A stretch of DNA of 64,000 nt from Enterococcus malodoratus ATCC 43197 (GTDB lineage: Bacteria > Bacillota > Bacilli > Lactobacillales > Enterococcaceae): the NCBI RefSeq assembly GCF_000407185.1, contig NZ_KE136482.1:248001-312000 (forward strand), read 5' to 3'. The translations under genes were made by a program, and so were the position numbers. Below the pieces are notes generated by a model. It was not told where the DNA came from, did no database searches, and worked only from the letters and a program-made list of their open reading frames with translations. Shown here in pieces: positions 4,264 through 49,688 of this stretch. The stretch's first letter is position 1. Each line of letters begins with the position of its first letter.

Positions 4264-4404
4264 CTAGAGTGCCTGCAAGTCAATGTGGCCTCCGCCAACG
4301 TATGGTTTATGGACTGAATCAATAGATATGGCGGAATTTCTATTGATTTGAGAAGTACAGGTCGTTACTAGAAAACATACGCTTAATACTAAAATGACTT
4401 TTAT
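4264..4404 (-). pseudogene. Coding-like fragment resembling a secreted/lipoprotein N-terminus
   Basis: This open frame reads like a signal peptide (IKVILVLSVCFLVTTC) followed by a short polar region ending in HIDLQAL. No ATG, GTG or TTG start is present; the frame begins after a stop at the end of the neighbouring lipoprotein gene, and only ATA would be available. It may be the remnant of a duplicated lipoprotein gene, or a chance frame. There is no clear ribosome binding site. Confidence 0.25.
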
Positions 4405-5865: not shown

Positions 5866-6015
5866 TTATGCGATTTTTGCTAATTCTTGTACTGCATTTT
5901 CAATTGTGGTACCTGTAGCACTTTTGTTTTCGTTGTTTTTGTCGAAAACAATAAATAGATTCAAGTCAGTATCTAAAGTTACTCGGTACTCTAATTTTTT
6001 GTTAGTGAATGTCAT
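5866..6015 (-). CDS. Small acidic/polar protein of unknown function
   Basis: A 49-residue protein beginning MTFTNKKLEYRV, with a beta-strand pattern (YRVTLDTDLNLFIVF) and a short C-terminal helix (ENAVQELAKIA). A longer frame extends twelve codons upstream, but AAAGGAG lies eight bases before the internal ATG used here, so this start is preferred. It has its own terminator. No family recognised. Confidence 0.6.
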   Translation of the reverse strand: MTFTNKKLEYRVTLDTDLNLFIVFDKNNENKSATGTTIENAVQELAKIA

Positions 6016-6295
6016 ATAGCATTCTCCTTTCTCATTAGTGACGAAAGGCAACTAAAACGTTCATAACGAAATTCCATTTATTAATATACCACAATTCAAG
6101 AAATTCTCCTAATAAGTAGGTCGAGGGTTAATACATAAACTTTATAGACCAGTTGTTGGGAGACTTTAGATGAAACTCAAACCGACTCTTGACGAAGTTC
6201 GACTTCGGGAATGATTTTCTATTGTTTAGGTTTTTTTACCCTGAGCGAAATTATATATGATAGTATTTCTTTGTATAGAAGGCGAGTATTGAGTG

Positions 6296-6421
6296 ATGCA
6301 AAACTCGAAGAAATTGAATGTTCTGTATATCAAAAAAGATATTGAAAGAACTAGTTGTACTAATGAAGCGATAAGAAAATCAGTAGCAAGGGAATGTATA
6401 TCGAGTCATGGATGGAAATAA
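6296..6421 (+). CDS. Possible 41-residue basic peptide
   Basis: A short frame beginning MQNSKKLNVLYIKKDIER, mixed polar and basic, without membrane segments. It overlaps the next small ORF by 14 bases in another frame. The ribosome binding site is poor (GGCGAG). A possible promoter (TTTACC and TATGAT) lies about 50 bases upstream. The frame could be real and coupled to the next gene, or spurious. Confidence 0.3.
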   Translation: MQNSKKLNVLYIKKDIERTSCTNEAIRKSVARECISSHGWK

Positions 6422-6587
6422 AAAGATTTATATCCGAGGAGTTATTCAAGTAATAGTGTTCATGTTAATTGTTGGGTTACTGCTTTACGGATCTCAAAAT
6501 TTTTCACTAAAAAATTTCTTATTAGGAACACTAGTCTTTTCATTAGGTGTATGTGTCAGTGTGTATTTAAGGGTGAGTAAACGGTGA
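6408..6587 (+). CDS. Small two-span membrane protein
   Basis: A 59-residue protein starting MDGNKKIYIRG. It has two hydrophobic segments (about residues 11-28 and 36-54) separated by a short polar loop, and a basic C-terminus (RVSKR). The overall form, positive-inside at both ends, fits a real hairpin membrane protein. The only start is the ATG; the ribosome binding site is weak, so it may depend on translation of the overlapping upstream ORF. No family recognised. Confidence 0.45.
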   Translation: MDGNKKIYIRGVIQVIVFMLIVGLLLYGSQNFSLKNFLLGTLVFSLGVCVSVYLRVSKR

Positions 6588-6839
6588 TCTCTTTACTTCA
6601 CTAAAGCAAAAAAATGAACGAGATTATTCAAGTCTAGTTATTATTCAAAGGGCAAATATTTTTTATTTATTATTACTTATTTGTGTTATCTAGCCCAATT
6701 GTTTGCTGAATGCTTCTGAACCTTTATTTTATTAAGTAAATCTGTTATTTTGAATATAGATAAAGACGCTTTCTGCGAGGTTTAGAGTTATGAAATAGAA
6801 GATGAACAATACTATTTAACTTGAAAGTTGTGGTTTATC

Positions 6840-7043: not shown

Positions 7044-7451
7044 ATGAAGAAAAGAAATTTAGTTTTTGCGGGATTAGTGAGTTTGATGTTATTTGGCGGA
7101 TGTTCATCAGATCAAGCAGATTCGACAGATAGTTCGTCTGCCAAAGAGACAGTTTCAAGTACGAAAAAAAATGAGCTTCACTCAAGTATCACGTTATTAG
7201 ATGGTGACAAGGAGCTGTCGAAAAAGGAGATCACGTTTAAAGAAGGACAAAATTTATTTGATGCACTAAAGGATAACTACACTATTGAGGATGATGATGG
7301 AATGATCACCTCGATCGATGGTCATGCTCAAGATGCCAAAAATAAGAAGTATTGGGTCTTTACAATAAACGATGAGCAAGTGAACGCTGGGGCAAAAGAT
7401 GTCGTGTTGAAGAAGGACGATCGTGTGGTGTTCAAACTTGAACAATTCTAG
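7044..7451 (+). CDS. DUF4430 transcobalamin-like lipoprotein
   Basis: A 135-residue lipoprotein precursor. The signal peptide ends at LFGGC (Cys20), followed by a Ser/Asp-rich spacer and a DUF4430 domain (about residues 45-135), recognisable from ITFKEGQNLFDALKDNY, GMITSIDGH and KYWVFTINDEQVNAGA. DUF4430 corresponds to the C-terminal fold of transcobalamin and intrinsic factor. With the B12 riboswitch in front and a transporter S-component behind, it is likely a surface cobalamin-binding protein that hands the vitamin to the ECF transporter; this role is inferred. AAAGGGGATAAGG precedes the ATG. Confidence 0.85.
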   Translation: MKKRNLVFAGLVSLMLFGGCSSDQADSTDSSSAKETVSSTKKNELHSSITLLDGDKELSKKEITFKEGQNLFDALKDNYTIEDDDGMITSIDGHAQDAKNKKYWVFTINDEQVNAGAKDVVLKKDDRVVFKLEQF

Positions 7452-7995
7452 ATCAATCTATTCCATCTTTTCATTAGGGGTAAAAGAATTAAGTCTGTTG
7501 TCGATGATGGTCGCTTTATGTGTCGTCAGTCGAACGTTCTTCCAATTTATTGTGAATGTGCAGCCTGTTACGGCGATATTATTGATTATCACGATCTATT
7601 GGGGCGCCTATCAGGGATTATTAGTCAGTATTCTATCCATTCTGATTACAAACTTTTATATGGGGATGGGTGTTTGGACCATCGCCCAAGTCGCGACCTA
7701 TTTTCTACTTATTTCACTGACCGGATTGTTAAAAAAAATTCCGAAATTTAAACAGAGTATCCTGATCCAGGCGGTCTATGCAGGGATCACAGGCTTGCTA
7801 TTTGGATTTTTGATATCAGCGATTCAAGCACCATTTTTGGGTATCTCAGCATTTTTGCCTTATTATTTGGCAGGTATCCCTGTAGATGTAATGCACGCCG
7901 TTGGAAATGTTGTGTTCTATCTATTATTGACGCCTGTTTTGAAAAAATTATTAACAGAGACGATACGAAAGTGGCGCAGAGCAAGCAATGGATAA
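7423..7995 (+). CDS. ECF transporter S-component, probably cobalamin-specific
   Basis: A 190-residue integral membrane protein with about six hydrophobic segments, of the ECF S-component type (compare the early SMMVALCVVSRTFFQF helix and the C-terminal AGIPVDVMHAVGNVVFYLLL helix). Substrate assignment to vitamin B12 (CbrT-like) is inferred from the upstream cobalamin riboswitch and the transcobalamin-like lipoprotein. The GTG start overlaps the lipoprotein gene by 29 bases; GAAGGA six bases ahead of the GTG supports it. The shared EcfA/A'/T module is not in the window and must be supplied from elsewhere. Confidence 0.8.
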   Translation: MWCSNLNNSRSIYSIFSLGVKELSLLSMMVALCVVSRTFFQFIVNVQPVTAILLIITIYWGAYQGLLVSILSILITNFYMGMGVWTIAQVATYFLLISLTGLLKKIPKFKQSILIQAVYAGITGLLFGFLISAIQAPFLGISAFLPYYLAGIPVDVMHAVGNVVFYLLLTPVLKKLLTETIRKWRRASNG

Positions 7996-12272: not shown

Positions 12273-13328
12273 ATGCATGAAAAGTACATGGAGCTCGCGA
12301 TTGATGAGGCGCTGAAGGGAAAGGGTAAAAATTTTACCAATCCATTAGTTGGCGCAGTCATTGTAAACGATAATCAGGTCATTGCAAGAGGCGGACATCT
12401 AGCTTATGGAGAGCCTCATGCAGAGAAAAATGCGATCCATTCATGTAAAACTCCCGAAAAACTATTCAACTCAACGATCTATGTGACACTGGAACCGTGT
12501 AATCATTATGGGAAACAACCGCCTTGTACGCAGGCCATTTTACAAAGCGGAATCAAACGGGTGGTGATCGGCCAGCTCGATCCGAATCCTTTAGTTGCTG
12601 GCAAAGGCAAACAGTTTTTGGAGGATCATGGAATCGAGGTGATCACCGGGATTTTGGAAAAAAAGGTCCAAAAATTGAACGGACACTATAATTTTTATTA
12701 TGAGCATCAGCGTCCTTTTATTACGTTGAAACAGGCGATTTCGCTTGATGGGAAAATTGCTTTGGCCGGTCAAAGAACGGCTTTAACTGGAGCGGAAGCA
12801 TCGGAAAAAGTTCATGAAGAACGCGGCGATTATCAAGCGATTTTGATTGGGAGCAACACAGCGCTGATCGATAACCCATCGCTGGGAACAACGAAATCCA
12901 CCGCCTTTCCGCCTTATCGAATAATTTTAGACCGAAAAGGAGAGACTCTGAGTCATAAAGAACTGACTATTTTTCATGACGGAAGCAGTCCGGTGCTGAT
13001 TTTTACTGAGAACATGCAAAAAGCTGATGTGCCGAAGCATGTAGAGGTTATCTGTGAAAAAGCGCTAACAATTCCCGTGGTTGTCTCGGAATTATTTAGT
13101 CGGACGATCCAATCTGTTTATGTTGAAGGGGGAGCGAAGATTCACGATGCTTTCCTGGCTAGCGGTTATTGGGATGAGCTGATTACCTATTTGACGCCGA
13201 AAATTATTGGCGGTGATGGGACTGCGAGTTTTACTAGCTCGCGGAGGACAGAGCAGGTGACGGCGATAAAAACTATTGCGATTGAAACCTTTGGCGAGGA
13301 TCTAAGAATCACGGGAAGGAGAGGATAG
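12273..13328 (+). CDS. ribD: Bifunctional riboflavin deaminase/reductase RibD
   Basis: Cytoplasmic enzyme for the second and third steps of riboflavin synthesis: deamination of the pyrimidine made by GTP cyclohydrolase II and NADPH-dependent reduction of its ribose. The N-terminal deaminase has the zinc site His49-Ala-Glu51 (EPHAEKNA) and PCNHYGKQPPC (Cys76, Cys85) and the NPLVGAVIV motif; the C-terminal half is the RibD reductase domain (QAISLDGKIAL, VEGGAKIHDAFL). The ATG preceded by GGAGGAG is used; a frame extending 37 codons upstream runs through the riboswitch terminator and is rejected. First gene of the FMN-controlled operon. Confidence 0.95.
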   Translation: MHEKYMELAIDEALKGKGKNFTNPLVGAVIVNDNQVIARGGHLAYGEPHAEKNAIHSCKTPEKLFNSTIYVTLEPCNHYGKQPPCTQAILQSGIKRVVIGQLDPNPLVAGKGKQFLEDHGIEVITGILEKKVQKLNGHYNFYYEHQRPFITLKQAISLDGKIALAGQRTALTGAEASEKVHEERGDYQAILIGSNTALIDNPSLGTTKSTAFPPYRIILDRKGETLSHKELTIFHDGSSPVLIFTENMQKADVPKHVEVICEKALTIPVVVSELFSRTIQSVYVEGGAKIHDAFLASGYWDELITYLTPKIIGGDGTASFTSSRRTEQVTAIKTIAIETFGEDLRITGRRG

Positions 13329-13329
13329 A

Positions 13330-13932
13330 ATGTTTACGGGACTCATTCAAGAAACCGGAAAAATTACCCGGCTCGTTTCTAGCGGCCGAACGATTTTACT
13401 GACTTGCCAGGCCTCAAGCGATTTATTGGTGGATTACAAAGTGGGAGATAGTATGGCGATCAATGGGGTTTGTCTGACGGCTGTGAAAAAAACGGAGCAA
13501 ACATTTACCGTTGAGATCATGCCGGAAACTTATCAGCGAACGACCTTTTCCAAAGCGAAAATCGCTGACGAGGTAAACCTTGAACGTGCTTTAGCTTTCA
13601 ACGGCCGCATAGAAGGGCACTTTGTCGCAGGGCATGCGGATACGACGACTAGATTGGCAGAAAAAAGAGTATTGGAGAATGCATTGATTCTGACCTTTGA
13701 CTACCCGCAGGAGTTGGTGGGCGAGATCATTCCTCAAGGCTCCATCGCGATCAATGGTGTCAGTTTGACTGTGACAGGAGCAAACGCGCGCCGTTTCTCA
13801 GTTGGTTTGATTCCTCATTCGAAGGATCAGACCAATCTAGGGAAATTGAATCGTGGCGAGTTAGTAAATATCGAGACGGATTTGTTAGGTAAATATGTCA
13901 AAGCCCAAAGAAAGGAACAGCCTTATGAGTAA
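13330..13932 (+). CDS. ribE: Riboflavin synthase alpha subunit
   Basis: Last step of the pathway: dismutation of two 6,7-dimethyl-8-ribityllumazine molecules to riboflavin. The 200-residue protein starts with the diagnostic MFTGLIQETG and has two internally similar lumazine-binding halves, each with an AINGVCLT/AINGVSLT strand (near residues 45 and 140). It follows ribD after one base and overlaps ribBA by 8 bases. Confidence 0.95.
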   Translation: MFTGLIQETGKITRLVSSGRTILLTCQASSDLLVDYKVGDSMAINGVCLTAVKKTEQTFTVEIMPETYQRTTFSKAKIADEVNLERALAFNGRIEGHFVAGHADTTTRLAEKRVLENALILTFDYPQELVGEIIPQGSIAINGVSLTVTGANARRFSVGLIPHSKDQTNLGKLNRGELVNIETDLLGKYVKAQRKEQPYE

Positions 13933-26240: not shown

Positions 26241-26705
26241 TTCATCATGTGATGGATACCGAAAAGGTTCCTAAGAAATTGATGGTTCCTTCAAACATTT
26301 TTCCCTCCAAAGTACTGTAGGATATTCGCAGAGAAGTAGTAGTGATGCAAATGAGAAGGCCTATTTAATGGGTCTAAAAATTTGTGATCGTGATTGTCGA
26401 AAATACAGAGGTAGAAAAAAAGTTAAATACTGAGCCACACTACGCAACTCAGAAATTGAGTTGCGTAGTTTTTTGAATATTAAAAGAACTTCCTAATCAA
26501 AAAAATCCTGTCAATGTAGGTCATGATAAAAAAGACAATATATTCAAATGGAAGAGATTCATTACATAGCAAAAAATGCTATCATGGGAAATAGTGATTG
26601 TTTGTTTTATTTAAGAAGCAAACACAGCTAGTTCATTTTGAAATTCCGCCGGTATATTTGGCGCGTCACAATAATAAACAGGATTATATAAGGAGTTGCT
26701 TATTT
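26241..26705. other. Intergenic region after pepD
   Basis: About 465 bases. It contains a strong terminator at 26439-26475 (13-bp stem ACTACGCAACTCA/TGAGTTGCGTAGT plus T-run). The remainder holds no recognised gene; the frame upstream of the DUF4931 gene (from TTG 26598) lacks a ribosome binding site. Confidence 0.6.
26439..26475 (+). terminator. Terminator downstream of pepD
   Basis: A 13-bp perfect stem with a 5-base loop and a run of six T. It is about 200 bases after the pepD stop. Confidence 0.9.
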
Positions 26706-40485: not shown

Positions 40486-40521
40486 TTTTTCTGACATAAG
40501 CTATTTAAGTATAAGTGATAA

Positions 40522-40553
40522 AAGATTCAGCATAGATGCTGAATTCTTTTTAT
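40522..40553 (+). terminator. Terminator
   Basis: GATTCAGCAT/ATGCTGAATT stem with a short loop and T-run. Confidence 0.85.
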
Positions 40554-40605
40554 AATTGTAATAGTACAGATAAAAAATTCAAAAACAATTACGGGAGGCT
40601 TCGAA

Positions 40606-41436
40606 ATGGACAAGAGTGTATTAATAAACGATAGCATCGACTATATTTTGTCTCATTTAGAAGAACCCATCACGATAGCTGATGTGGCCGATCATCTTTC
40701 TTACTCAAAGTATTATTTTTGCCGCATGTTTAAGGACGTAACTGGCGAGAGCGTCTATTCCTTCATCAAGCGAGTCAAGCTAGAACAAAGCGCGATTGAT
40801 TTAAAGATAAAAAGGGAGAAACAAATTTCGCAGATCGGCCTGGAATATGGCTACAGTGCCTCAAATTATAGCTCTGTATTCAGAGAAATGTATGATCAAT
40901 CGCCCATTAAATTTAGGAAATCTGTCCAAGCCAATACAATCCAAAATCCATTCGATTCACAGAAGCAAGAGCATCTATCCTCGTACGAAGAATATCAAGA
41001 AAAGATTCAAATACGCGAGGTCAATCACCTATTTGTTGTTTACAAACGACAGATTGGCAATTACATCGAGCTAAAGCAAGAATGGGCGTCCTTTATTGCT
41101 GAGAATGCCTACTATGATGAATCGGCGATTTTGATGGAAAAATATTATAGTGATCCTTCTGTAGCGCTTGAAGATCATAGTATTTGCGATCTATGTTTTA
41201 CAGTGGACAAAGCCTTTGATGCTGAGAATACAAAACAGGTCGAAGGTGGACGATGTGCGGTTTTTCCTTTTCAAGGAGCTATCGAGGATATCTTTTCAGC
41301 GATCCAAGGACTGTTTACGATTTGGCTGCCGCAAAGCAAGTATCAAATGAGCAAGAAATATGGGTTGAATATTTATCGCAATATTGATTGGGAAGCGGGC
41401 TATGTTCAAATGGATATTTGTATTCCAATAAAATAG
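40606..41436 (+). CDS. AraC-family regulator with GyrI-like effector domain
   Basis: A 276-residue regulator: two AraC HTH motifs in residues 1-105 (ITIADVADHLSYSKYYFCRMFK; ISQIGLEYGYSASNYSSVFRE) and a GyrI-like ligand-binding domain in residues 125-276 (VNHLFVVYKRQIGNY; the acidic-pocket region and the terminal YVQMDICIPI strand). Such proteins (Rob/SoxS-like BmrR/GyrI group) sense drugs or cationic compounds. GGGAGG precedes the ATG. Its terminator is shared with the leader of the next gene. Confidence 0.9.
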   Translation: MDKSVLINDSIDYILSHLEEPITIADVADHLSYSKYYFCRMFKDVTGESVYSFIKRVKLEQSAIDLKIKREKQISQIGLEYGYSASNYSSVFREMYDQSPIKFRKSVQANTIQNPFDSQKQEHLSSYEEYQEKIQIREVNHLFVVYKRQIGNYIELKQEWASFIAENAYYDESAILMEKYYSDPSVALEDHSICDLCFTVDKAFDAENTKQVEGGRCAVFPFQGAIEDIFSAIQGLFTIWLPQSKYQMSKKYGLNIYRNIDWEAGYVQMDICIPIK

Positions 41437-41463
41437 AGCAAGAATTCAGAAGTTTCACAAGCG

Positions 41464-41524
41464 ATTCTTTTCTACAATAAAGTTATCTAAGACAGATAAT
41501 TTTTATGTAGAAAAGAATTTTTTT
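41464..41524 (+). terminator. Intrinsic terminator or attenuator between AraC and DUF1062 genes
   Basis: A 13-bp perfect outer stem (41464-41476 with 41506-41518), with an internal TTATCT/AGATAA hairpin and a seven-T run. It ends the AraC transcript or acts as an attenuator of read-through, because the next ribosome binding site lies 3 bases later. Confidence 0.85.
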
Positions 41525-41541
41525 GTAAAGGAGGTATTTGT

Positions 41542-41577
41542 ATGAGAATGGTGATTCCACCTTATCTTGGGCAATAG
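41542..41577 (+). CDS. 11-residue leader peptide upstream of the DUF1062 gene
   Basis: A very strong ribosome binding site (AAAGGAGG, 41527-41534, spacing 7) is followed by ATG and the peptide MRMVIPPYLGQ, then TAG. A hairpin (CTTGGGCAAT paired with ATTGCCCAGG, 41566-41591) covers the last codons and the stop and ends just before the ribosome binding site of the next gene. The layout is that of a translational attenuator. The PP pair is a slow-translation motif. Not matched to a known leader. Confidence 0.6.
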   Translation: MRMVIPPYLGQ

Positions 41578-41591
41578 TTTGATTGCCCAGG
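41566..41591 (+). promoter_or_regulatory. Hairpin at the end of the leader peptide
   Basis: A 10-pair stem including one G-T pair and a 6-base loop. A ribosome on the leader codons would melt it. It abuts AAAGGAAGG, the ribosome binding site of the DUF1062 gene. Confidence 0.6.
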
Positions 41592-41607
41592 AAAGGAAGG
41601 ATAAAAG

Positions 41608-42180
41608 GTGAGAAAAGTTGTCTGGACGATAAATTTTTTGAGTACTCCGACGATAACGCGTCATTGCAAGAATTGTAACAGAGATATGGAATTTTCTTGT
41701 TCAGAACGTTTTCGCATCAATGCTCAGGGAAAGTATCTGGATGTCTGGCTGATTTATAACTGTAAAAAATGTAAAACTAGTTGGAATTCAACCATTTTTT
41801 CAAGAGTTCATACGAACAAAATGGATCAAGAATTACTGGCACTTTTCCAAAACAATGATCCGATGCTTGCAAGACAATACGGCTCTGATCGCACGATTTT
41901 AAATCAAAACGGCGTGACTCTTCGAAGAGTTGAGTATGAAATTTTAGGCGAGAGGTTCGAACTGGATGAACCCGTCATTTTAGAAATTCAAAGTGACTTT
42001 CCACTAAAGATTAAATTGTTCAATCTGCTTAAAGCTAAACTGGATCTTTCAACTAGCGAATTGAAACAGTTCTTAAAAGAAGGAGCTATTCAAGGGGCAG
42101 CTGTGAATTGTTTTAAGAAAAAAGTACATGAGAGTACGACCATTATTTTTAATCAAACAGAGGAACTTATTGATTCTTAA
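41608..42180 (+). CDS. DUF1062 protein
   Basis: A 190-residue cytoplasmic protein of the DUF1062 family: an N-terminal zinc-ribbon-like part with HCKNCN and YNCKKCKTSWNS (four cysteines), a middle region with YGSD, and a C-terminal S4-like or helical part (DLSTSELKQFLKEGAIQG). Such proteins have no assigned role. The start is GTG with AAAGGAAGG seven bases ahead. It is preceded by an 11-codon leader peptide and hairpin and follows an AraC/GyrI regulator, which suggests drug-responsive expression (inferred). Confidence 0.85.
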   Translation: MRKVVWTINFLSTPTITRHCKNCNRDMEFSCSERFRINAQGKYLDVWLIYNCKKCKTSWNSTIFSRVHTNKMDQELLALFQNNDPMLARQYGSDRTILNQNGVTLRRVEYEILGERFELDEPVILEIQSDFPLKIKLFNLLKAKLDLSTSELKQFLKEGAIQGAAVNCFKKKVHESTTIIFNQTEELIDS

Positions 42181-42206
42181 ATGAAATACGTTTCGTCGAA
42201 TATAAA

Positions 42207-42253
42207 AAAACCATCGAGTTGATCAATGATCGATTGCCCGATGGATTTTTTGA
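42207..42253 (+). terminator. Terminator
   Basis: AAAAACCATCG pairs with CGATGGATTTTTT around a long loop that contains a second small palindrome (TTGATCAATGATCGA). Confidence 0.8.
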
Positions 42254-42357
42254 TTTTTTACATTCTGTGTATCTTATTACAGTCTTAAAACAAATAAGAA
42301 TATTTCATGATATATTAAAGAAACAGGTCCATAAAATATCTATGAGAAGGTGAGCCT

Positions 42358-43035
42358 ATGGTAAAAATTTTGATGGTCGAGGATGAGCAGGAAATCAGCG
42401 AGCTGGTTGTCTTTTATTTAAAAAACGAAAATTATGAAGTGATTACTTGTGAAACTGGGCAAGCTGCCTTGGAAAGGATTCACACAGAAGATTTTGCGCT
42501 GGCGATTTTAGATGTGATGCTGCCGGATATTAGCGGATTCGAATTGTGTCAGGCGATTCGAAAAAAATATACCTATCCGATTATCATGCTGACGGCTAAG
42601 GGTGAAGAGATCGATAAGATAACCGGGCTTACACTTGGAGCAGATGATTATATGACGAAGCCGTTTCGCCCCTTGGAGTTAGTCGCACGGGTGAAGGCGC
42701 AGTTGCGAAGAGCAACTCAATACAGTAATTTAGGTCGTAATATCCTGATGGTCAAGGGGATCGAACTGGATGTGGAGAAACGGAAAGTGTTTCTGAATGA
42801 GCAGGAGCTGTATTTGACACCGATTGAATTTTCAATCCTAAAACTATTGATGGAGAGACAGGATCAGGTGGTGAGCTCGGAACAAATATTCAGAGAAGTC
42901 TGGGGCGAAAAATACTACGTAAACTCCAATAATACGATCATGGTACACATTCGTCATCTAAGGGAAAAGCTGCAGGATACCGGCGAAAAATACAAATATA
43001 TTCAAACCGTTTGGGGCATTGGCTATAAAATCTGA
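42358..43035 (+). CDS. VanR-like OmpR-family response regulator
   Basis: A 225-residue response regulator. Receiver domain with acidic pair Glu8-Asp9 (VEDE), phosphorylated Asp52 (LDVMLP) and Lys101 (TKPFRPLELVARVKAQLRR), then a winged-helix DNA-binding domain (TPIEFSILKLLM, NNTIMVHIRHLREKL). The HTYPIIML/DKITGLT-GADDY stretch closely follows VanR of glycopeptide-resistance clusters. AGAAGGTGAG precedes the ATG. It is followed by a D,D-carboxypeptidase gene; the matching VanS-like kinase is on the opposite strand beyond it. Confidence 0.9.
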   Translation: MVKILMVEDEQEISELVVFYLKNENYEVITCETGQAALERIHTEDFALAILDVMLPDISGFELCQAIRKKYTYPIIMLTAKGEEIDKITGLTLGADDYMTKPFRPLELVARVKAQLRRATQYSNLGRNILMVKGIELDVEKRKVFLNEQELYLTPIEFSILKLLMERQDQVVSSEQIFREVWGEKYYVNSNNTIMVHIRHLREKLQDTGEKYKYIQTVWGIGYKI

Positions 43036-43038
43036 CTC

Positions 43039-43055
43039 CTTAAGAGAACTTAAGA
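43039..43055 (+). promoter_or_regulatory. Direct repeat, candidate response-regulator binding site
   Basis: CTTAAGA occurs twice with a period of 10 bases (43039 and 43049), about 75 bases before the carboxypeptidase start. OmpR/VanR-family regulators bind such tandem sites. A single CTTAAG lies upstream of the kinase gene (45225 region). Confidence 0.4.
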
Positions 43056-43125
43056 TAGAAATAAGTGAATATTAAAAATTGCCTTTCTAGTAGATGCTTA
43101 AATAGGTCTATAGGGAGGTTTTTTT

Positions 43126-44028
43126 ATGAAAAGGCAATTTAAAAATTGGATGGCTTTGCTCTTGCTAATTTTTTTCATCCTAGCAGGTGTACTTTTGTAT
43201 CGGGTAGGAAATACATTTAGCAGTGCCAATTTATCAAAATCGGAATCGTTGATCTTAAACAAACAAATTTCGTCCGATCATTATTTACTAAAATCAAGAA
43301 ACGGGTCGGAGATTTATCGCAAAGGCGAAACACAAAGAATTTCGATCGCTTCCTTGACGAAAATAATGACGGCAATTTGTATTATTGAACATGCAACGGG
43401 TCTTGATCAGTCCGTGACCGTCCCTCAGAATATTTTTTTCGAAATTGAACAAAATAATTTGGCTGTGGCTGGATTAATGCTCGGTGAGAAGATTAGCTAT
43501 TGGGATTTATTGCACGGCATTATTTTGCCTTCGGGTGCAGATGCAACATTGACTGCTGCTTTAGGAATCTGTGAAGATGAGCAATCATTTGTTGAAATTA
43601 TGAATGAAAAAGCGGCACAGCTCGGAATGACAGCCACTCATTTTGCCAATTCAACAGGATTGGATGCGGCCGGTCATTATTCGACCATCAAGGATATGAT
43701 GATCCTTTTGGAATACGCGCTCAAAAATGACTCCTTTTATCAAATTTTTACTTCATTGAATTATCAAGGTTCAGCAACCAACAGGCATCCAGAAGGAAAT
43801 TATTTCACCAGCAGTATGATCAGTCGAGGAGAAAGTCTTGAGCTTTCAAAAGGGAATATTATCGGTGGAAAAACGGGTTATACACCAAAAGCTGGTTTAT
43901 GTTTGGCTAGTTTAGCAGAGATTGATGGCGAGGAATATTTATTGATTATCGCAGGCTGTAAGGGCAGCGATGAATCTAAGCAATTCAATGTGATCGAGAG
44001 TCGTACTTTTTATAATAGTATTCAATAA
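43126..44028 (+). CDS. Serine-type D-Ala-D-Ala carboxypeptidase (S11 family)
   Basis: A 300-residue membrane-anchored peptidase: N-terminal hydrophobic anchor (residues 9-26), then an S11 (DacA/DacC/VanY-type) domain with Ser76-x-x-Lys79 (ASLTKIM), the SGAD motif in place of SxN, and Lys249-Thr-Gly (GGKTGYTP). It trims the terminal D-Ala of peptidoglycan stems. It is shorter than typical PBP5-like enzymes and lacks their C-terminal anchor domain. GGGAGG precedes the ATG. Between the VanR-like gene and the convergent VanS-like gene, it is a probable target of that system; inferred. Confidence 0.9.
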   Translation: MKRQFKNWMALLLLIFFILAGVLLYRVGNTFSSANLSKSESLILNKQISSDHYLLKSRNGSEIYRKGETQRISIASLTKIMTAICIIEHATGLDQSVTVPQNIFFEIEQNNLAVAGLMLGEKISYWDLLHGIILPSGADATLTAALGICEDEQSFVEIMNEKAAQLGMTATHFANSTGLDAAGHYSTIKDMMILLEYALKNDSFYQIFTSLNYQGSATNRHPEGNYFTSSMISRGESLELSKGNIIGGKTGYTPKAGLCLASLAEIDGEEYLLIIAGCKGSDESKQFNVIESRTFYNSIQ

Positions 44029-44029
44029 A

Positions 44030-44057
44030 AAAGCGTAGAATTTTCTACGCTTTTTCT
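44030..44057. terminator. Bidirectional terminator
   Basis: AAAGCGTAGAA/TTCTACGCTTT stem between convergent genes, T-rich in both directions, overlapping the end of the kinase gene. Confidence 0.8.
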
Positions 44058-45154
44058 AAAGGCAGTGCGATCGTAAAAGTGGTGACTCCATTATCACTAG
44101 TTACTGTAATCGTTCCTTGATGAGCCAAAATGATTTCTTTCGCGATCGCTAAACCTAGCCCAGCGCCGCCGGTTTTGGTCGATCGTGATTTATCCAATCG
44201 ATAGAATTTTTCAAAAATATTTGATAATTGATTTTCAGGAATAGTCATTCCTTCATTCGAGATACTAAAGGTCATCCTTTCAGCATCACTTGAAAGATGC
44301 AGCCGAATCGTTGAATGTGCGGTCCCGTAGTTCATCGCATTTTTTAATAAATTATTCAATACCCGAGCCAACTGTTCATTGTCCGCGAAGATGGTCAACG
44401 TTTCGGGGCCTTCATAAACCAGAGATTGAGTTTTTTCTTTGAGTAAAGGATAAAATTCATCCGCCAGCTGATTTAATAGAAAGACAAAATCAAGTTTCTC
44501 TTTATACAGCTGAATATCATGCAGATTAAAGCGGGTGATATCAAAAAAATCGTCAATCAGATGTTCCAGCCTTGTCGATTTTTCCAAGGTGATCGCCAAA
44601 AAGTGCTTCTTTTGTGCGTCTGTTAAATCATCTGAATCGATCATCAAATTGAGATAGCCGATAACGGATACTAAAGGCGTCCGTAAATCGTGAGCCAAAT
44701 AAGTAATCAAATCTTTGGTTCGCTGTGTTTCGCGTTTTAACAGAATTTCGTTGTTCTCAATATTCGACTTAATTTTCAGCAGCTCATTATCAATCATCAG
44801 TTCGCCTGTCGGAGCGGCAGAAGGTTCTGAAAAGAAAACAGCGATTTTCCCCGCAAGCAGCCGAGTATTCTTTGTCAGTTGGATGCGATGGATAATATAA
44901 CTGACCAATGACACAATGAAGATGATGGTGAGCGCATAAAGAATAAGAAACAATTTGACGTTCGGCCAGTCAATATAGGTTTGAGTGTACTCTGCGCCAT
45001 CAGAGGTAGGAACAGAATTTGAACGAACTAAGGTATTATAAAAACCGTCAAAAATAGTATGATGCAAATCGGTTCGATTAAAGAGAAAATACAATCCGAC
45101 AAAAAGAACGATGCTTAATAAAATAAACGCTAGGATACTTGTTTTTCTGCTCAT
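44045..45154 (-). CDS. VanS-like sensor histidine kinase
   Basis: A 369-residue membrane kinase. Two membrane segments (about residues 7-25 and 67-87) enclose a short extracellular loop; then a HisKA domain with His155 (YLAHDLRTPLVSVIGYLNL) and an HATPase domain (NNLLKNAMNYG; EKFYRLDKSRS; GGAGLGLAIAKEI). The dimerisation and catalytic domains follow VanS closely, while the sensor loop is distinct. It is convergent to the carboxypeptidase gene, an unusual arrangement because vanS normally follows vanR directly. Confidence 0.9.
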   Translation of the reverse strand: MSRKTSILAFILLSIVLFVGLYFLFNRTDLHHTIFDGFYNTLVRSNSVPTSDGAEYTQTYIDWPNVKLFLILYALTIIFIVSLVSYIIHRIQLTKNTRLLAGKIAVFFSEPSAAPTGELMIDNELLKIKSNIENNEILLKRETQRTKDLITYLAHDLRTPLVSVIGYLNLMIDSDDLTDAQKKHFLAITLEKSTRLEHLIDDFFDITRFNLHDIQLYKEKLDFVFLLNQLADEFYPLLKEKTQSLVYEGPETLTIFADNEQLARVLNNLLKNAMNYGTAHSTIRLHLSSDAERMTFSISNEGMTIPENQLSNIFEKFYRLDKSRSTKTGGAGLGLAIAKEIILAHQGTITVTSDNGVTTFTIALPLEKA

Positions 45155-45286
45155 TTACGCTACCTCACTTTATGGTCTCTTTATAAGTGTAGCAAACGCA
45201 TAGAGCAGAAAGAAGTTGAGAAGTCTTAAGTTTTCTTCATTTTTTTACGAGTCAGACAGAGGAAAGAGGAATCAAGAAAACTTTTA

Positions 45287-45328
45287 TAGACAAATCATTT
45301 TGAATCGATTAAACTACAGATGTAGTTT
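45287..45328 (+). promoter_or_regulatory. BlaI-type operator and promoter of the blaI-blaR operon
   Basis: A promoter TAGACA/TAAACT (17-base spacing; -10 at 45310-45315) overlaps the palindrome AAACTACAGATGTAGTTT (45311-45328), whose TACA-n2-TGTA core is the BlaI/MecI recognition element. Repression by the first gene's product is expected. Confidence 0.8.
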
Positions 45329-45342
45329 GAAGGGAGTCAGTG

Positions 45343-45717
45343 ATGGAAAAAGAGATAAAAATTACCGATGCGGAACTAAAAATTATGGAATACGTTTGGA
45401 AAAGAGCCTCTGTTGATTCAAAGGAGATTATCCGAGCATTTGAAAAAGAGGAAGAGTGGAGTCCGAATACGATTCGAACGCTATTGGTTCGTTTGGAACA
45501 AAAAGGGGTTGTCGACCATTCAAAATCAGGCAGAGTGTATGTCTATCACGCACTAATCCCGAGAGAATATTTCGTGAAGCAGGAAAGCCAAAAGTTTATT
45601 CACAAATTTTTTGATGGCAAGGTCAGTGATTTCGTTTCGAATTTTGTTGAGGATGAATCGATTGATGAAAAGGAAATCGACGAGTTGCGGGAATTATTAA
45701 ATAAAAGGAGAAAATAG
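45343..45717 (+). CDS. BlaI/MecI-family repressor
   Basis: A 124-residue dimeric winged-helix repressor (ITDAELKIMEYVWKRASVDSKEI; SPNTIRTLLVRLEQKG; YVYHALI) with the C-terminal helix used for dimerisation. In bla/mec systems, cleavage of the repressor after beta-lactam sensing releases the operators. AAGGGAG precedes the ATG; a GTG directly upstream is in frame but less well spaced. It ends immediately at the start of the blaR1-like gene. The two AAACTACAGATGTAGT operators are its presumed sites. Confidence 0.93.
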   Translation: MEKEIKITDAELKIMEYVWKRASVDSKEIIRAFEKEEEWSPNTIRTLLVRLEQKGVVDHSKSGRVYVYHALIPREYFVKQESQKFIHKFFDGKVSDFVSNFVEDESIDEKEIDELRELLNKRRK

Positions 45718-47475
45718 ATGACTCATTTTCTTTTGAATATCATTTCTGCCAACCTGTACCTGATTCTTTTATTCATACTTAGAAGGCTGCTCGACAAACA
45801 GCTTTCACCAATCTATCAAGGCAAATATTGGAATCTAGCGGGATTGACCGTCTTCTTCTTTATTCCCAATCAGCTTCTTACGGGATTCAGGGATCTTATT
45901 TATTACCGAATGCAAAGTGTAATGCCAGGTCGAGCACTTCCGACTTCGCTTCATTTGGATAATGCTCAAAGTTTCATGGGAGAAACGGCCTCTGGCTGGA
46001 TGAATGACAATGCACTTCCAGCGAATGATTTCGGCTCTATTTTTTTATGGTCGATGGCAGCTGTATGGTCGATCGGTGTTGTGATTTTTCTGGTTCGAGC
46101 AATCTATTCTTATAGCCAATTTCGGAAAATGATTCGAGCGGCTGTACAAGTAGATGATCAAAGAGTTCAAAAACAATTGGCAAAAGCAGAGAACTGTTTG
46201 GGATACAGCAGAAAAGGATTGGTTCTCCTACAGACTGATGGAGTCGATAGCCCGGCGACATTTGGTGTTTTTCGCCCCAAGATTGTTTTGCCGAACAGCT
46301 TTATTGCTAAAGCTTCAAATGAACAGCTATTTTTCATTTTATTACATGAACTGGTTCATCAGAGAAATAGGGACACGGTTCAAAATAATCTTTTATTTGG
46401 GCTGTCGATTCTAAACTGGTTCAATCCCGTAAGCTATTGGCTCGTCAAACAAGCAAGAAGCGACCGAGAAATTTCTTGTGATCAGTCTGTGATGCGTTTA
46501 TTGAATGAAGAGGATGTTTTCTTTTATGGAACGACATTGCTGGATTATGCGCAAAAAAATCAGAATTCATATTTGCTTGGTTTTTCCGGTAAGCGCAAAG
46601 AGCTGACGAGAAGAATCGAATGCATCAGCAGCTTTCAGCCCTCATCGACCAAAAAATTGGCTGCTAAATTCATGGTGGTGATCGCTCTAGTTGTCGGTAT
46701 TTTCTTGATAGTCCCGCAAGCGCGGACTGACGAAACGGATCAATTTTCGCGGCAAGAACCGCTGGTTGAACAGAAATCCGATCCGCTTTTTGATCAAAAC
46801 GAAAATAATTCGCTGGTCATTTATGATGAGAGCAAGGATCGCTATCTGACCTACAATCAAGCGGCAGGGCATAAACGCTATTCGCCTGACAGTACCTACA
46901 AAATTTGGAGTGCGCTGTTCGCACTTGATGCACATAAGATTGATCAGACAAGTAATGTACGGGCTTGGGATGGAACGGACTATCCAATTGACAGCTGGAA
47001 TCATGATCAGAATCTTCAAACAGCCTTAACGAATTCCACGAATTGGTATTTCCAGCAGCTTGATTCGGAATTGGGAAAAACGAAGTTAAAAGAAAACTTT
47101 CGTTCAATCAACTATGGAAATATGAATCTTTTAGGTGGAATTGATAATTATTGGCTGGAATCGTCCTTGAAAATATCGCCATTTGAACAAGTGGATCTGT
47201 TTAGAAAGCTGCTGGAAGGAAAGCTGTCATTTTCGACCGATAATGTGGCTTTTGTAAAGGAGGCCATTCATTTACAAACACAGCCGGAATATGCACTTTA
47301 CGGAAAAACCGGGACCGGCAACAGTGTAACAACGAGTACAGGCTGGTTCCTTGGGTCGATGGAAACGAATAAGGGAAACTATTATTTTGCCTGTCATTTA
47401 CAAGGAGCAAAGGCAACTGGATCAGCAGCGGCTGAAAAAACATTAGCAATATTAAAGGAGCTAGAAATTTATTGA
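45718..47475 (+). CDS. BlaR1/MecR1-family beta-lactam sensor protease
   Basis: A 585-residue membrane signal transducer. The N-terminal half has four membrane segments and an M56 metallopeptidase domain with His210-Glu-x-x-His214 (LLHELVHQRNRD) and DREISCDQSVM. The C-terminal extracellular part is a class D-like penicillin-binding sensor with Ser392-Thr-Tyr-Lys395 (SPDSTYKIW), NSTNWYFQ and GKTGTG. Acylation by a beta-lactam would activate the protease and release the repressor. It starts with no gap after the repressor gene, with AAAAGGAG upstream. Confidence 0.93.
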   Translation: MTHFLLNIISANLYLILLFILRRLLDKQLSPIYQGKYWNLAGLTVFFFIPNQLLTGFRDLIYYRMQSVMPGRALPTSLHLDNAQSFMGETASGWMNDNALPANDFGSIFLWSMAAVWSIGVVIFLVRAIYSYSQFRKMIRAAVQVDDQRVQKQLAKAENCLGYSRKGLVLLQTDGVDSPATFGVFRPKIVLPNSFIAKASNEQLFFILLHELVHQRNRDTVQNNLLFGLSILNWFNPVSYWLVKQARSDREISCDQSVMRLLNEEDVFFYGTTLLDYAQKNQNSYLLGFSGKRKELTRRIECISSFQPSSTKKLAAKFMVVIALVVGIFLIVPQARTDETDQFSRQEPLVEQKSDPLFDQNENNSLVIYDESKDRYLTYNQAAGHKRYSPDSTYKIWSALFALDAHKIDQTSNVRAWDGTDYPIDSWNHDQNLQTALTNSTNWYFQQLDSELGKTKLKENFRSINYGNMNLLGGIDNYWLESSLKISPFEQVDLFRKLLEGKLSFSTDNVAFVKEAIHLQTQPEYALYGKTGTGNSVTTSTGWFLGSMETNKGNYYFACHLQGAKATGSAAAEKTLAILKELEIY

Positions 47476-47517
47476 TTTCTAGTTTCTTATTACTATCAAA
47501 AACTACAGATGTAGTAT
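47472..47517 (+). promoter_or_regulatory. Promoter and BlaI-type operator of the PBP gene
   Basis: A TTGATT/TATCAA promoter (16-base spacing) is followed at once by AAACTACAGATGTAGTAT (47500-47517), which shares 16 of 18 bases with the operator in front of the repressor gene. This puts the transpeptidase gene under the same repressor. Confidence 0.75.
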
Positions 47518-47536
47518 ATGGAAAGGTGCAGAAAAA

Positions 47537-49549
47537 ATGAAACGAAGTGAGAAACACAAGCGCGGCAAGGGAATCGTTATCGTTACGGGAATTTTGATTA
47601 TCGGTTGTCTTTTCTTTTTCGGCTACCGCACGATAAATGAACAACGGATGGAGGCAAAAGGTAAGGAAACGATTAAGGTCTTTGTTGATCGACTTTCGAA
47701 AGGGAAATATCAGGAGTCTTTAAAATATCTTTCTGAAGACTCGTTAAAGGCGCTGGATTTTTCAAAGCAGCAAGTAAATGAAAAGTACCAAAATATTTAT
47801 GGCAGTATCGGTGTTCATGATATCAAGATTAAGAATCTTAAAATAAAGAAGAATCAATTTGCGTATACGGCGGTTCTTTATACAGGCTTAGGAAAGTCGT
47901 TGAAGCAAAATTATCAAGGAACATTCACGAAAGGAAATAGTTTAATCGAATGGGCGCCGAATTTGATTTTTTCTGGAATGAAACGAACAGATAAGGTGGC
48001 TTATCATTACCTTTCTGCCACAAGAGGAGAGATCGTGGATCGAAATGGACATGGCCTAGCCAATAATGGTGAGATCGTTAACTTTGGGGTCGTGCCTAAA
48101 GCGCTGGGCGAAGGGGAGCAAAAACAGGAAAAAATCAAAAAAATCAGTGAAGCTCTAGGTTTGACTGAAAAAGCCATCAATACGGCATTGGAGCAAAGCT
48201 GGGTCAAGGAAGAGTATTTTGTTCCATTAAAGACTGAAACGAAGGTACCAGAAAACTTCGAGGCCCCAGACGGATTAGAGGTGCAAACGGATATTGGGAG
48301 AACCTATCCAATCGGTGAGGCGGCCGCGCATCTTATTGGATATGTTGGAGCGGTAACAGCAGAGGACATGAAAAAAAATAAAGGTTTATCCGAAGGCAGT
48401 ATTATTGGTCGGACTGGGCTGGAAAGAGTATTTGATAAAAAACTGCGAGGTCGCGATGGCGGGTATATTGCTATAACGAACAGCGAAGGGAAAGAAAAGG
48501 AAATTCTGCAAAAAATCAATGTCGTTGAAGGGAAAAAGATCCAATTAACGATCGATGTCCAAGCGCAATACTTGGCCTATAAATCATTAGATAATGAGCG
48601 AGGATCAAGTGTAGTGACGGAACCGAAAACGGGAGATTTGCTGGCTGTCGCCAGTTCGCCGAGCTTTGATCCCAATAAATTCGTTCATGGAATTAGTCAA
48701 ACGGATTACGACAAACTTTCGAAAGACGAAGCTTTGCCATTTTTAGCAAGATATTCAAACGGTTATGCGCCAGGATCGACCTTCAAGTTGATCACAGCCG
48801 CAATCGGATTGGATGCCGGAACAATTGATCCGAACCAAGCTTTAGCGATCAATGGATTAAAATGGCAGCAGGATGCTTCTTGGGGAGGATACAAAGTAAC
48901 TCGTGTTTCCGATGTTTCGCCAGTCGATTTAAGGACGGCGATGATTTATTCCGACAACATCTACATGGCTCAAGAAACTTTAAAAATGGGGGAGAAAACA
49001 TTTCGTGCGGGCTTAAACAAATTTATTTTCGGAGAAGAGCTAGATTTGCCGATCGAAATGAATCCCGCGCAAATATCCACCGAAAAGAATTTCGGCTCAG
49101 ATATTTTATTGGCCGATACCGGTTACGGACAAGGGCAGCTGCTATTAAATCCGATTCAGCAAATCGCGACCTACTCAGTTTTTCCTAATAATGGAACGAT
49201 CGTTTATCCGAAACTTTTGCTGTCGCAGGAAAATAAAACAAAGAAGAATGCAGTCTCTGCTGAAACGGTCGCCCGTATTAATCAAGACATGCAGGCAGTT
49301 GTGGAAGACCCTAACGGCACCGCCAATAGTCTGCAGTCCTTAGGGATTCCGCTCATGGCAAAAACTGGAACCGCAGAAATCAAAGAAAAACAAGATGAAC
49401 GCGGGCAGCAAAACAGTTTCCTTTACGCCTTTGACAGTCAGAATCAAAAATTTTCGGTCCTGCAATTTTTAGAAGACCGTCCAGACAGCAAGTCGGCCGT
49501 GGGAATGGTTCCAGAATTGTTGAAATATCTAAAAGAGAATTACAACTAA
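47537..49549 (+). CDS. MecA/PBP2a-like class B penicillin-binding protein
   Basis: A 670-residue transpeptidase: membrane anchor (residues 12-30), an NTF2-like MecA_N domain (about 38-145), the dimerisation domain (RGEIVDRNG; IGRTYPIGEAAAHLIGYVG) and a C-terminal transpeptidase domain with Ser414-x-x-Lys417 (GSTFK), Ser472-Asp-Asn474 (YSDN) and Lys609-Thr-Gly (AKTGTAE). The same layout is found in S. aureus PBP2a and the enterococcal low-affinity PBP5. With its own operator and a BlaI/BlaR1 pair upstream, it is likely a beta-lactam-inducible, low-affinity replacement enzyme; affinity is inferred. GAAAGGTG lies before the ATG. Confidence 0.93.
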   Translation: MKRSEKHKRGKGIVIVTGILIIGCLFFFGYRTINEQRMEAKGKETIKVFVDRLSKGKYQESLKYLSEDSLKALDFSKQQVNEKYQNIYGSIGVHDIKIKNLKIKKNQFAYTAVLYTGLGKSLKQNYQGTFTKGNSLIEWAPNLIFSGMKRTDKVAYHYLSATRGEIVDRNGHGLANNGEIVNFGVVPKALGEGEQKQEKIKKISEALGLTEKAINTALEQSWVKEEYFVPLKTETKVPENFEAPDGLEVQTDIGRTYPIGEAAAHLIGYVGAVTAEDMKKNKGLSEGSIIGRTGLERVFDKKLRGRDGGYIAITNSEGKEKEILQKINVVEGKKIQLTIDVQAQYLAYKSLDNERGSSVVTEPKTGDLLAVASSPSFDPNKFVHGISQTDYDKLSKDEALPFLARYSNGYAPGSTFKLITAAIGLDAGTIDPNQALAINGLKWQQDASWGGYKVTRVSDVSPVDLRTAMIYSDNIYMAQETLKMGEKTFRAGLNKFIFGEELDLPIEMNPAQISTEKNFGSDILLADTGYGQGQLLLNPIQQIATYSVFPNNGTIVYPKLLLSQENKTKKNAVSAETVARINQDMQAVVEDPNGTANSLQSLGIPLMAKTGTAEIKEKQDERGQQNSFLYAFDSQNQKFSVLQFLEDRPDSKSAVGMVPELLKYLKENYN

Positions 49550-49563
49550 ACAGTACGTACAAA

Positions 49564-49598
49564 AGCGAGCTGTCCGACTCTTGGATCAGCTCGTTTTT
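49564..49598 (+). terminator. Terminator after the PBP gene
   Basis: CGAGCTG/CAGCTCG stem with a 14-base loop and T-run. Confidence 0.85.
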
Positions 49599-49688
49599 GC
49601 TATTGTATGGGCCAAAAAGGCTTTTGTGATGCCTTCTCATTTTAGCGTATACTTGATTTATAAGAAAAATCGAAAGAGGAGGAACGAA

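Follow-up and report, generated by a model that had tools for sequence, protein, structure and literature searches.

Beta-lactam resistance in enterococci is usually put down to the level and the sequence of the penicillin-binding proteins (PBPs) PBP4 and PBP5. The staphylococcal mecA-mecR1-mecI system (NZ_KT780704) joins a sensor-protease, a repressor, a class B PBP with a MecA_N domain and TACAnnTGTA operators in a mobile context, and the staphylococcal and Bacillaceae bla operons share the BlaR1 and BlaI architecture, the operators and the repressor cleavage site. Here, we describe a module with the same parts, blaI-blaR1-pbp, in Enterococcus malodoratus ATCC 43197, located in a stretch of 64,000 nucleotides of contig NZ_KE136482.1 (positions 248,001 to 312,000; hereafter the window, to which coordinates without a contig or plasmid name refer). 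We consider it probable that the module encodes a beta-lactam-inducible, horizontally moving second PBP5 on an enterococcal megaplasmid, convergent with mecA-mecR1-mecI. Unlike the mec complex, its PBP belongs to the PBP5 family (37.5% identity to MecA), its genes are co-directional, whereas mecA is divergent from mecR1-mecI, its BlaR1 lies in a separate clade, no recombinase occurs among the eight larger open reading frames (ORFs) of the insert that carries it, and its relatives are found between IS6-family elements. Unlike the bla operons, its target is a PBP, no beta-lactamase was found in the window, and the enterococcal BlaR1 clade stands apart at 100/100 support.

The three genes lie in one direction on the + strand (Table 1). 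The parts named in the preliminary description, a BlaI-type repressor, a BlaR1-type sensor and a MecA_N-containing class B PBP, were all recovered with Pfam models above their curated cut-offs (Penicillinase_R, 126.5 bits in 45343-45717, where the PF03965 cut-off is 22.6; Peptidase_M56, 154.1 bits, and Transpeptidase, 131.7 bits, in 45718-47475; MecA_N, 44.1 bits, PBP_dimer, 111.7 bits, and Transpeptidase, 223.4 bits, in 47537-49549), and BlaR1 passes the generic BlaR1 model. The HEXXH protease and STYK sensor motifs that it had reported for BlaR1 are intact (HELVH at residue 210 and STYK at 392, followed by STN at 440 and KTG at 530), as are the motifs of the PBP (STFK at 414, SDN at 472 and KTGT at 609), and the enterococcal nature of the host is likewise supported. 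Among solved structures, BlaI is closest to MecI, and BlaR1 to the BlaR1 entries 8exp/8exs. The N100-F101 bond of BlaI is the counterpart of Asn101-Phe102, given as the bond cut in Staphylococcus aureus BlaI in the available part of PMC9834060, and it is present in 5/5 enterococcal BlaI proteins checked. Judged by eye from ribosome-site spacing, blaI more likely starts at the ATG at 45343 than at the GTG at 45340.

The enzyme had been described as PBP2a-like; judged by its sequence, it is instead a PBP5-family enzyme and not a PBP2a. It passes the PBP4(5) family model NF051842 (986.2 bits against a cut-off of 700) and fails the PBP2a model NF000237 MECA_PBP2A (400.8 bits against 750), and its best solved relatives are PBP5-type entries (755.6 bits), with PBP2a far behind (369.8). 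In a 35-row phylogeny with MecA as the outgroup, the PBP and those of the other mobile modules group at 100/100 within a 22-row clade of avium-group PBP5s, itself supported at 100/100. A first PBP tree had been built from 54 of the 55 extracted PBPs (L194, a partial sequence, was dropped); fragments or split genes (L017, L038 and L076), distant non-enterococcal sequences (L044-L075 and L077) and whole-genome copies other than L105, L106, L146 and five class-survey PBPs were left out. A second PBP5-family gene in the genome (C1:188766-190751), about 58-59% identical to the module PBP, occupies a locus common to related enterococci, and we take it as the native PBP5 and the module PBP as an additional copy. 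PBP5-family matches occur in 20/20 genus-group genomes, with two copies in three of them (the window genome, G007 and E. raffinosus DSM 5633). The module PBP resembles the enterococcal PBP5/PBP4(5) family, such as E. faecium PBP5 and E. faecalis PBP4, in its family model, solved matches and tree placement among avium-group PBP5s, and differs from the usual PBP5 in being an additional copy, off the native locus, under BlaI/BlaR1-type control and on mobile DNA. Because the PBP2a model scores low, MecA-based screening would probably miss it.

Near-identical operators had been noted before the repressor operon and the PBP gene, and AAACTACAGATGTAGT does occur exactly at 45311 and 47500. At three or fewer mismatches it has five matches in the window against 0.45 expected, a count reached by 0/100 shuffles; the five include the same two sites read on the - strand and one unrelated match at 26400. 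The perfect palindrome ACTACAnnTGTAGT is found at two places only in the 4.62-Mb genome, operators O1 and O2. At one mismatch or fewer it occurs at five places genome-wide compared with 16 for a reversed-pattern control, and since the near-match count falls below this control, the genome gives no sign of further regulon members. A perfect operator precedes blaI in 10/10 enterococcal modules examined, at a distance of about 28-31 bases in nine and of 35 in the tenth, whose blaI is broken and its start extrapolated, and another directly precedes pbp in all seven mobile-type modules. The palindromes are conserved across modules, with variation confined to the two central bases and the flanks. Two transcription units under one shared switch are probable, because O1 and O2 precede blaI and pbp, and stable hairpins end blaR1 and pbp.

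The mechanism that we propose is modelled on the staphylococcal bla and mec systems, whose parts and sites were found here. In the absence of drug, BlaI dimers on O1 and O2 would repress both blaI-blaR1 and pbp. A beta-lactam would acylate the BlaR1 sensor at the serine of STYK (residue 392), whereupon the M56 protease would become active and BlaI would be cut at the conserved N100-F101 bond, releasing O1 and O2 and opening both promoters. The extra, presumably low-affinity PBP5 would then keep cross-linking under drug, beside the native PBP5. The earlier proposal of an inducible, low-affinity-type PBP module is supported by these parts and sites, from which we infer induction, BlaI cleavage, low affinity and resistance.

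The preliminary description had placed the system on the chromosome. Contig C2, which carries the window, is 1,188,036 bp long and has none of the seven 16S rRNA matches, which fall on C1, C3 and C4. Matches to E. raffinosus megaplasmids were obtained for the window stretch and for two other 20-kb samples of C2 (over up to 70% of the length of one sample and up to 44% of that of the other, at roughly 79-81% identity), and both samples also match a 0.92-Mb plasmid of E. gilvus. One sample of C1 gave no match, and one of C3 small pieces only. A chromosomal location was therefore judged unlikely, and the module probably lies on a megaplasmid-like contig rather than on the main chromosome.

BlaR1 relatives were found in 6/20 genus-group genomes and in 8/105 family genomes; the two of these eight that lie outside the genus group have a match at the protease end only, in frames of 369-370 aa. 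The enterococcal modules occur in two forms. In E. pallens, 665A and 669A, each with a single PBP5-family match, blaI-blaR1 lies immediately upstream of PBP5; blaI is preceded by one perfect operator and pbp by none. The neighbours of this native-locus form match the native PBP5 locus of congeners on both flanks in E. pallens but on a single flank in the other two, the upstream one in 669A and the downstream one in 665A. The mobile form, with its own pbp operator, is that of the window, G007, the E. raffinosus plasmid pHG52, two E. raffinosus megaplasmids, E. raffinosus DSM 5633 and a plasmid of E. avium 352, and its PBP is an extra gene in all three of the seven modules for which the rest of the genome was searched. 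In regulation, the two forms were seen to differ mainly in that pbp has an operator to itself in the mobile form, whereas the native-locus form has a single operator. In a BlaR1 tree of 42 of 47 rows (two with in-frame stops and three shorter than 470 residues were removed), a single clade at 100/100 comprises the 10 enterococcal BlaR1s and divides into native-locus and mobile forms at 100/100 each, and mecR1 falls with three further BlaR1 rows (98/92), with a long-branch warning on both sides; an earlier 47-row tree agrees on the enterococcal clade. BlaR/BlaI control had been held to set this PBP apart from the usual enterococcal PBP5, a contrast that needs revision: the module PBP is a PBP5, and the sole PBP5 of E. 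pallens, 665A and 669A stands behind blaI-blaR1.

Horizontal movement is indicated by empty sites, by copies on smaller plasmids and by discordant divergence. Both insertion points are empty in the E. raffinosus megaplasmids of CX012922, Er676 and ATCC 49464, whose 20-kb loci contain no module protein, and the locus of the congener G011 is also empty (junctions against the window at 7798|8001 in loci L140, L141 and L142 and at 4351|4498 in L148); in G006, homology to the locus does not begin before the lacI gene, which makes this genome uninformative for the comparison. The module is present in two of the five E. raffinosus megaplasmids compared, those of F162_2 and HG-5, in an insert of about 4.4 kb. 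This insert and that of the window flank one small hypothetical gene on opposite sides, an arrangement that two separate insertions or one insertion and a rearrangement may explain. No target-site duplications were seen by eye at the borders of the window and E. raffinosus inserts. In agreement with the preliminary description, no recombinase, ccr included, was found among the eight larger ORFs of the insert, and the window has no IS6-type end (15-base IS6-end pattern, two or fewer mismatches). The suggestion drawn there that the module may be native is not supported: the synteny in relatives comprises empty sites, module-bearing megaplasmids and smaller plasmid copies.

These smaller copies are associated with IS6-type sequences. 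The 80-kb MOBP plasmid pHG52 of E. raffinosus HG-5 holds window positions 43772-49686 at 98.2% identity, and its module lies exactly between two same-orientation IS6-family copies (5992-6798 and 12712-13520, both transposases on the + strand), a segment that fits the structure of an IS6-family pseudo-compound transposon; the outer 8-bp flanks differ, so there is no target duplication. The 87.7-kb Inc18/MOBP plasmid of E. avium 352 carries a raffinosus-type module within a 10.5-kb megaplasmid segment that ends in IS6-type ends at 7413 and 17938, the right one of which enters the record start, its transposase not being seen. In G007, the module is on the 83-kb contig C3, which also encodes RepA_N, TcpC and a TraG/TraD-type domain and has IS6-type terminal sequences at some distance on either side of the module; no match covers more than 4% of a 20-kb piece of this contig, among the matches listed. 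E. raffinosus HG-5 holds both divergent module types, one on its megaplasmid and one on its 80-kb plasmid (L094/L099).

Vertical inheritance on an avium-group megaplasmid, with strain losses, local rearrangement and only secondary mobilisation, would also account for the fact that the window and E. raffinosus inserts share a megaplasmid locus, where no more than about 0.7 kb separates them. The nucleotide identity of the two modules (72%) is near the low end of that of the flanks (73-82%), and the identities of their proteins (84% for BlaI, 76% for the PBP and 66% for BlaR1, the fastest to diverge) partly overlap those of 17 neighbouring genes, which have a median of 88.1% and a range of 69.0-95.4 between the window and F162_2. 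The PBP identity of 75.8% in this comparison is, taken alone, within the neighbour range, and transfer is therefore argued from the native PBP5 comparison and from G007. Between the window and G007, the module PBPs are 96.0% identical and the native PBP5s 87.5%; between the window and E. raffinosus DSM 5633, the module PBPs are 75.7% identical and the native PBP5s 89.2%. As sequence comparisons go, the module PBP identities contradict species kinship, and in both directions. Together with the opposite sides of the hypothetical gene and the empty sites in three E. raffinosus megaplasmids and G011, this discordance leads us to regard such vertical inheritance as the less likely explanation.

For the origin of the horizontally moving module, we tentatively propose that the enterococci made a mec-like system of their own. 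A unit with one operator, formed when blaI-blaR1 was joined to the native PBP5 gene in a pallens-type lineage, would have reached avium-group megaplasmids and gained a second operator, by which the PBP came to be switched separately, and IS6-family elements would now be spreading two divergent versions to mobilisable plasmids in E. raffinosus and E. avium. One of these versions may be the unassigned 'PBP7' held responsible for penicillin resistance in E. raffinosus. In the 35-row tree, mobile and pallens PBPs are joined at 76/64, and the AU test does not reject an alternative in which the mobile PBPs group with native avium-group PBP5s (p 0.233), so the derivation of the mobile form from a pallens-type operon is a lead and not a result.

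This weak joining of the PBPs counts against our interpretation, as do several further observations. The promoter scan gave no sigma-70 match at O2 and the pbp promoter is weak, so that part of pbp transcription may be read-through from blaR1; taken as a whole, the scan was not above chance (11 found, 8.6 expected). Of the two hairpins, the one between blaR1 and pbp is followed by a short T-rich tail only, a poor T-tract, and neither it nor the one 3' of pbp was reported by the terminator scan. BlaI scores under every curated BlaI/MecI subfamily cut-off, the best being BlaI_of_BCL (99.1 against 180). The ends of C2 do not overlap (two 6-kb ends compared), and C2 may therefore not be a closed plasmid. 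Finally, the E. raffinosus DSM 5633 record has a broken blaI but open frames for blaR1 and the PBP, so that not every host retains the regulation; intact blaI copies are present in other E. raffinosus records.

It may also be asked whether the PBP is an ordinary duplicated housekeeping enzyme and blaI-blaR1 act on another target, as Bacilli BlaR1 loci usually adjoin beta-lactamase genes. A class survey found a BlaR1 match, at the threshold used, in 46/398 sampled genomes, the window genome included; 32 of the 50 match rows outside the window were fetched, the 18 left out matching the sensor end only. A beta-lactamase gene was near 28/32 fetched places (three beta-lactamase queries; some contigs end nearby), and a PBP 38-42% identical to the Priestia PBP or to MecA was found at 5/32, two of them with no beta-lactamase detected. 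However, the genome has no other perfect operator, O2 lies directly before pbp in every mobile-type module, the module genes travel together, and queries with two class A and one metallo-beta-lactamase had no match in the window, to which this search was confined. Apart from blaI, the genome has a single BlaI-family match (C3:350899-351237), which passes the CopY/TcrY copper-repressor model (154.8 against 121.95). We consider action on another target quite improbable.

Two places of the survey, L198 and L201 (genomes G190 and G123), have a PBP 41-42% identical to the Priestia PBP near blaI-blaR1, with no beta-lactamase detected. The Niallia taxi pMEGANia locus (L096, 5260-9437) is likewise comparable with the enterococcal module in having a PBP5/MecA-like PBP (48.5%), blaI, blaR1 and operators, with no beta-lactamase found in the 17-kb locus by the three queries; it differs in its order pbp-blaI-blaR1, in two perfect operators before pbp and in a BlaR1 outside the enterococcal clade. 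To judge from this small sample, BlaR1-controlled PBPs may have had more than one origin.

The one E. raffinosus record with a broken blaI could suggest a module in decay, carried along as non-functional cargo. The frames and motifs are intact, the operator palindromes are kept, and Ka/Ks values of 0.077-0.32 between the window and the G007 or pHG52 copies indicate purifying selection, by which function of the module is supported; we hold a remnant to be very unlikely. Descent of the module from staphylococcal mecA-mecR1-mecI, or the reverse, is scarcely credible in spite of the same functional parts, operator core and MecA_N domain and of MecI being the best solved match of BlaI, and was rejected on model scores (those of the PBP above; MecR1 model, 264.5 against 1200; MecI model, 85.8 against 250), on the BlaR1 tree, where the enterococcal clade stands apart from mecR1 subject to the long-branch warning, on the place of the PBP among enterococcal PBP5s at 37.5% identity to MecA, and on the co-directional order compared with the divergent one in NZ_KT780704 (L100), so that of the earlier suggestion of an ancestor or cousin of mec the cousin-like resemblance stands and the ancestry does not.

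Each component of the inducible, mobile PBP5 is of a known kind; the combination was not found in the literature searched. Among the matches listed by a literature search that covered few subscription papers, there was no description of a BlaR1/BlaI-linked PBP5 in native-locus or mobile form, and the BlaR1/BlaI passages available in them concern staphylococcal genes, blaZ operons, lists of regulators and references. A word search of the available main text of a paper on E. raffinosus megaplasmids (PMC10323788) gave no beta-lactam, ampicillin or pbp, the available text of a 2025 review (PMC12641126) lacks the word BlaR, and a 2022 review (PMC9866002), in its available part, states that plasmids with pbp5 had not been described for E. 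faecalis or E. faecium. If our interpretation is true, a drug-switched PBP5 between IS elements would mean that a mec-like system has originated twice independently, and the native-locus operon of E. pallens would be an apparent surviving intermediate. An old question touched by a 2024 paper (PMC11677854, available part) would become testable, and the presence or absence of the module from strain to strain, as among the five E. raffinosus megaplasmids, would offer natural comparisons.

PBP4/PBP5-family genes were also observed on plasmids of E. hirae, E. faecium, E. gallinarum and E. faecalis (records H5-H15, H18-H20, H22, H23 and H25-H30). At least 60% identity to the BlaR1 of the window is found in four plasmid records only, none of them among those PBP4/PBP5 plasmids.

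Table 1. Coordinates of the blaI-blaR1-pbp module, its putative regulatory sites and the surrounding insert in the window
Feature	Position	Strand	Remarks
Promoter-like TAGACA-17-TAAACT before blaI	45287..45315	+	Consensus match; scan overall at chance level
Operator O1, AAACTACAGATGTAGTTT	45311..45328	+	Overlaps the -10-like hexamer of the blaI promoter-like match
blaI	45343..45717	+	BlaI/MecI-type repressor, 124 aa; N-F cleavage site at residues 100-101
blaR1	45718..47475	+	M56 metalloprotease and class-D-like penicillin sensor, 585 aa; blaR1_generic 462.5 against cut-off 400
Hairpin, 12-bp, spanning the blaR1 stop codon	47458..47485	+	Weak terminator-like; -11.4 kcal/mol, z -4.45, 0/200 shuffles as stable
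Operator O2, AAACTACAGATGTAGTAT	47500..47517	+	Precedes pbp
pbp	47537..49549	+	Class B PBP, PBP4(5)/PBP5 family, 670 aa
Terminator-type hairpin, strong, 3' of pbp	49556..49606	+	-24.5 kcal/mol, z -5.70, 0/200 shuffles as stable
Whole insert against the empty site of three E. raffinosus megaplasmids	40490..49642		About 9.2 kb
Insert borders against congener G011	40489 and 49689		
AraC-type regulator, on insert	40606..41436	+	Under all cut-offs
190-aa protein without family assignment, on insert	41608..42180	+	
VanR-like response regulator, on insert	42358..43035	+	333.4 bits against 350, cut-off missed
S11 D-Ala-D-Ala carboxypeptidase, on insert	43126..44028	+	
VanS-like histidine kinase, on insert	44045..45154	-	301.1 bits against 400, cut-off missed; adjoins blaI

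The VanR-like regulator, the S11 D,D-carboxypeptidase and the VanS-like kinase (42358-45154) share the insert with the module. On pHG52, the module is accompanied by a carboxypeptidase fragment and a whole kinase, and the histidine kinase of the window is 100% identical to the latter.

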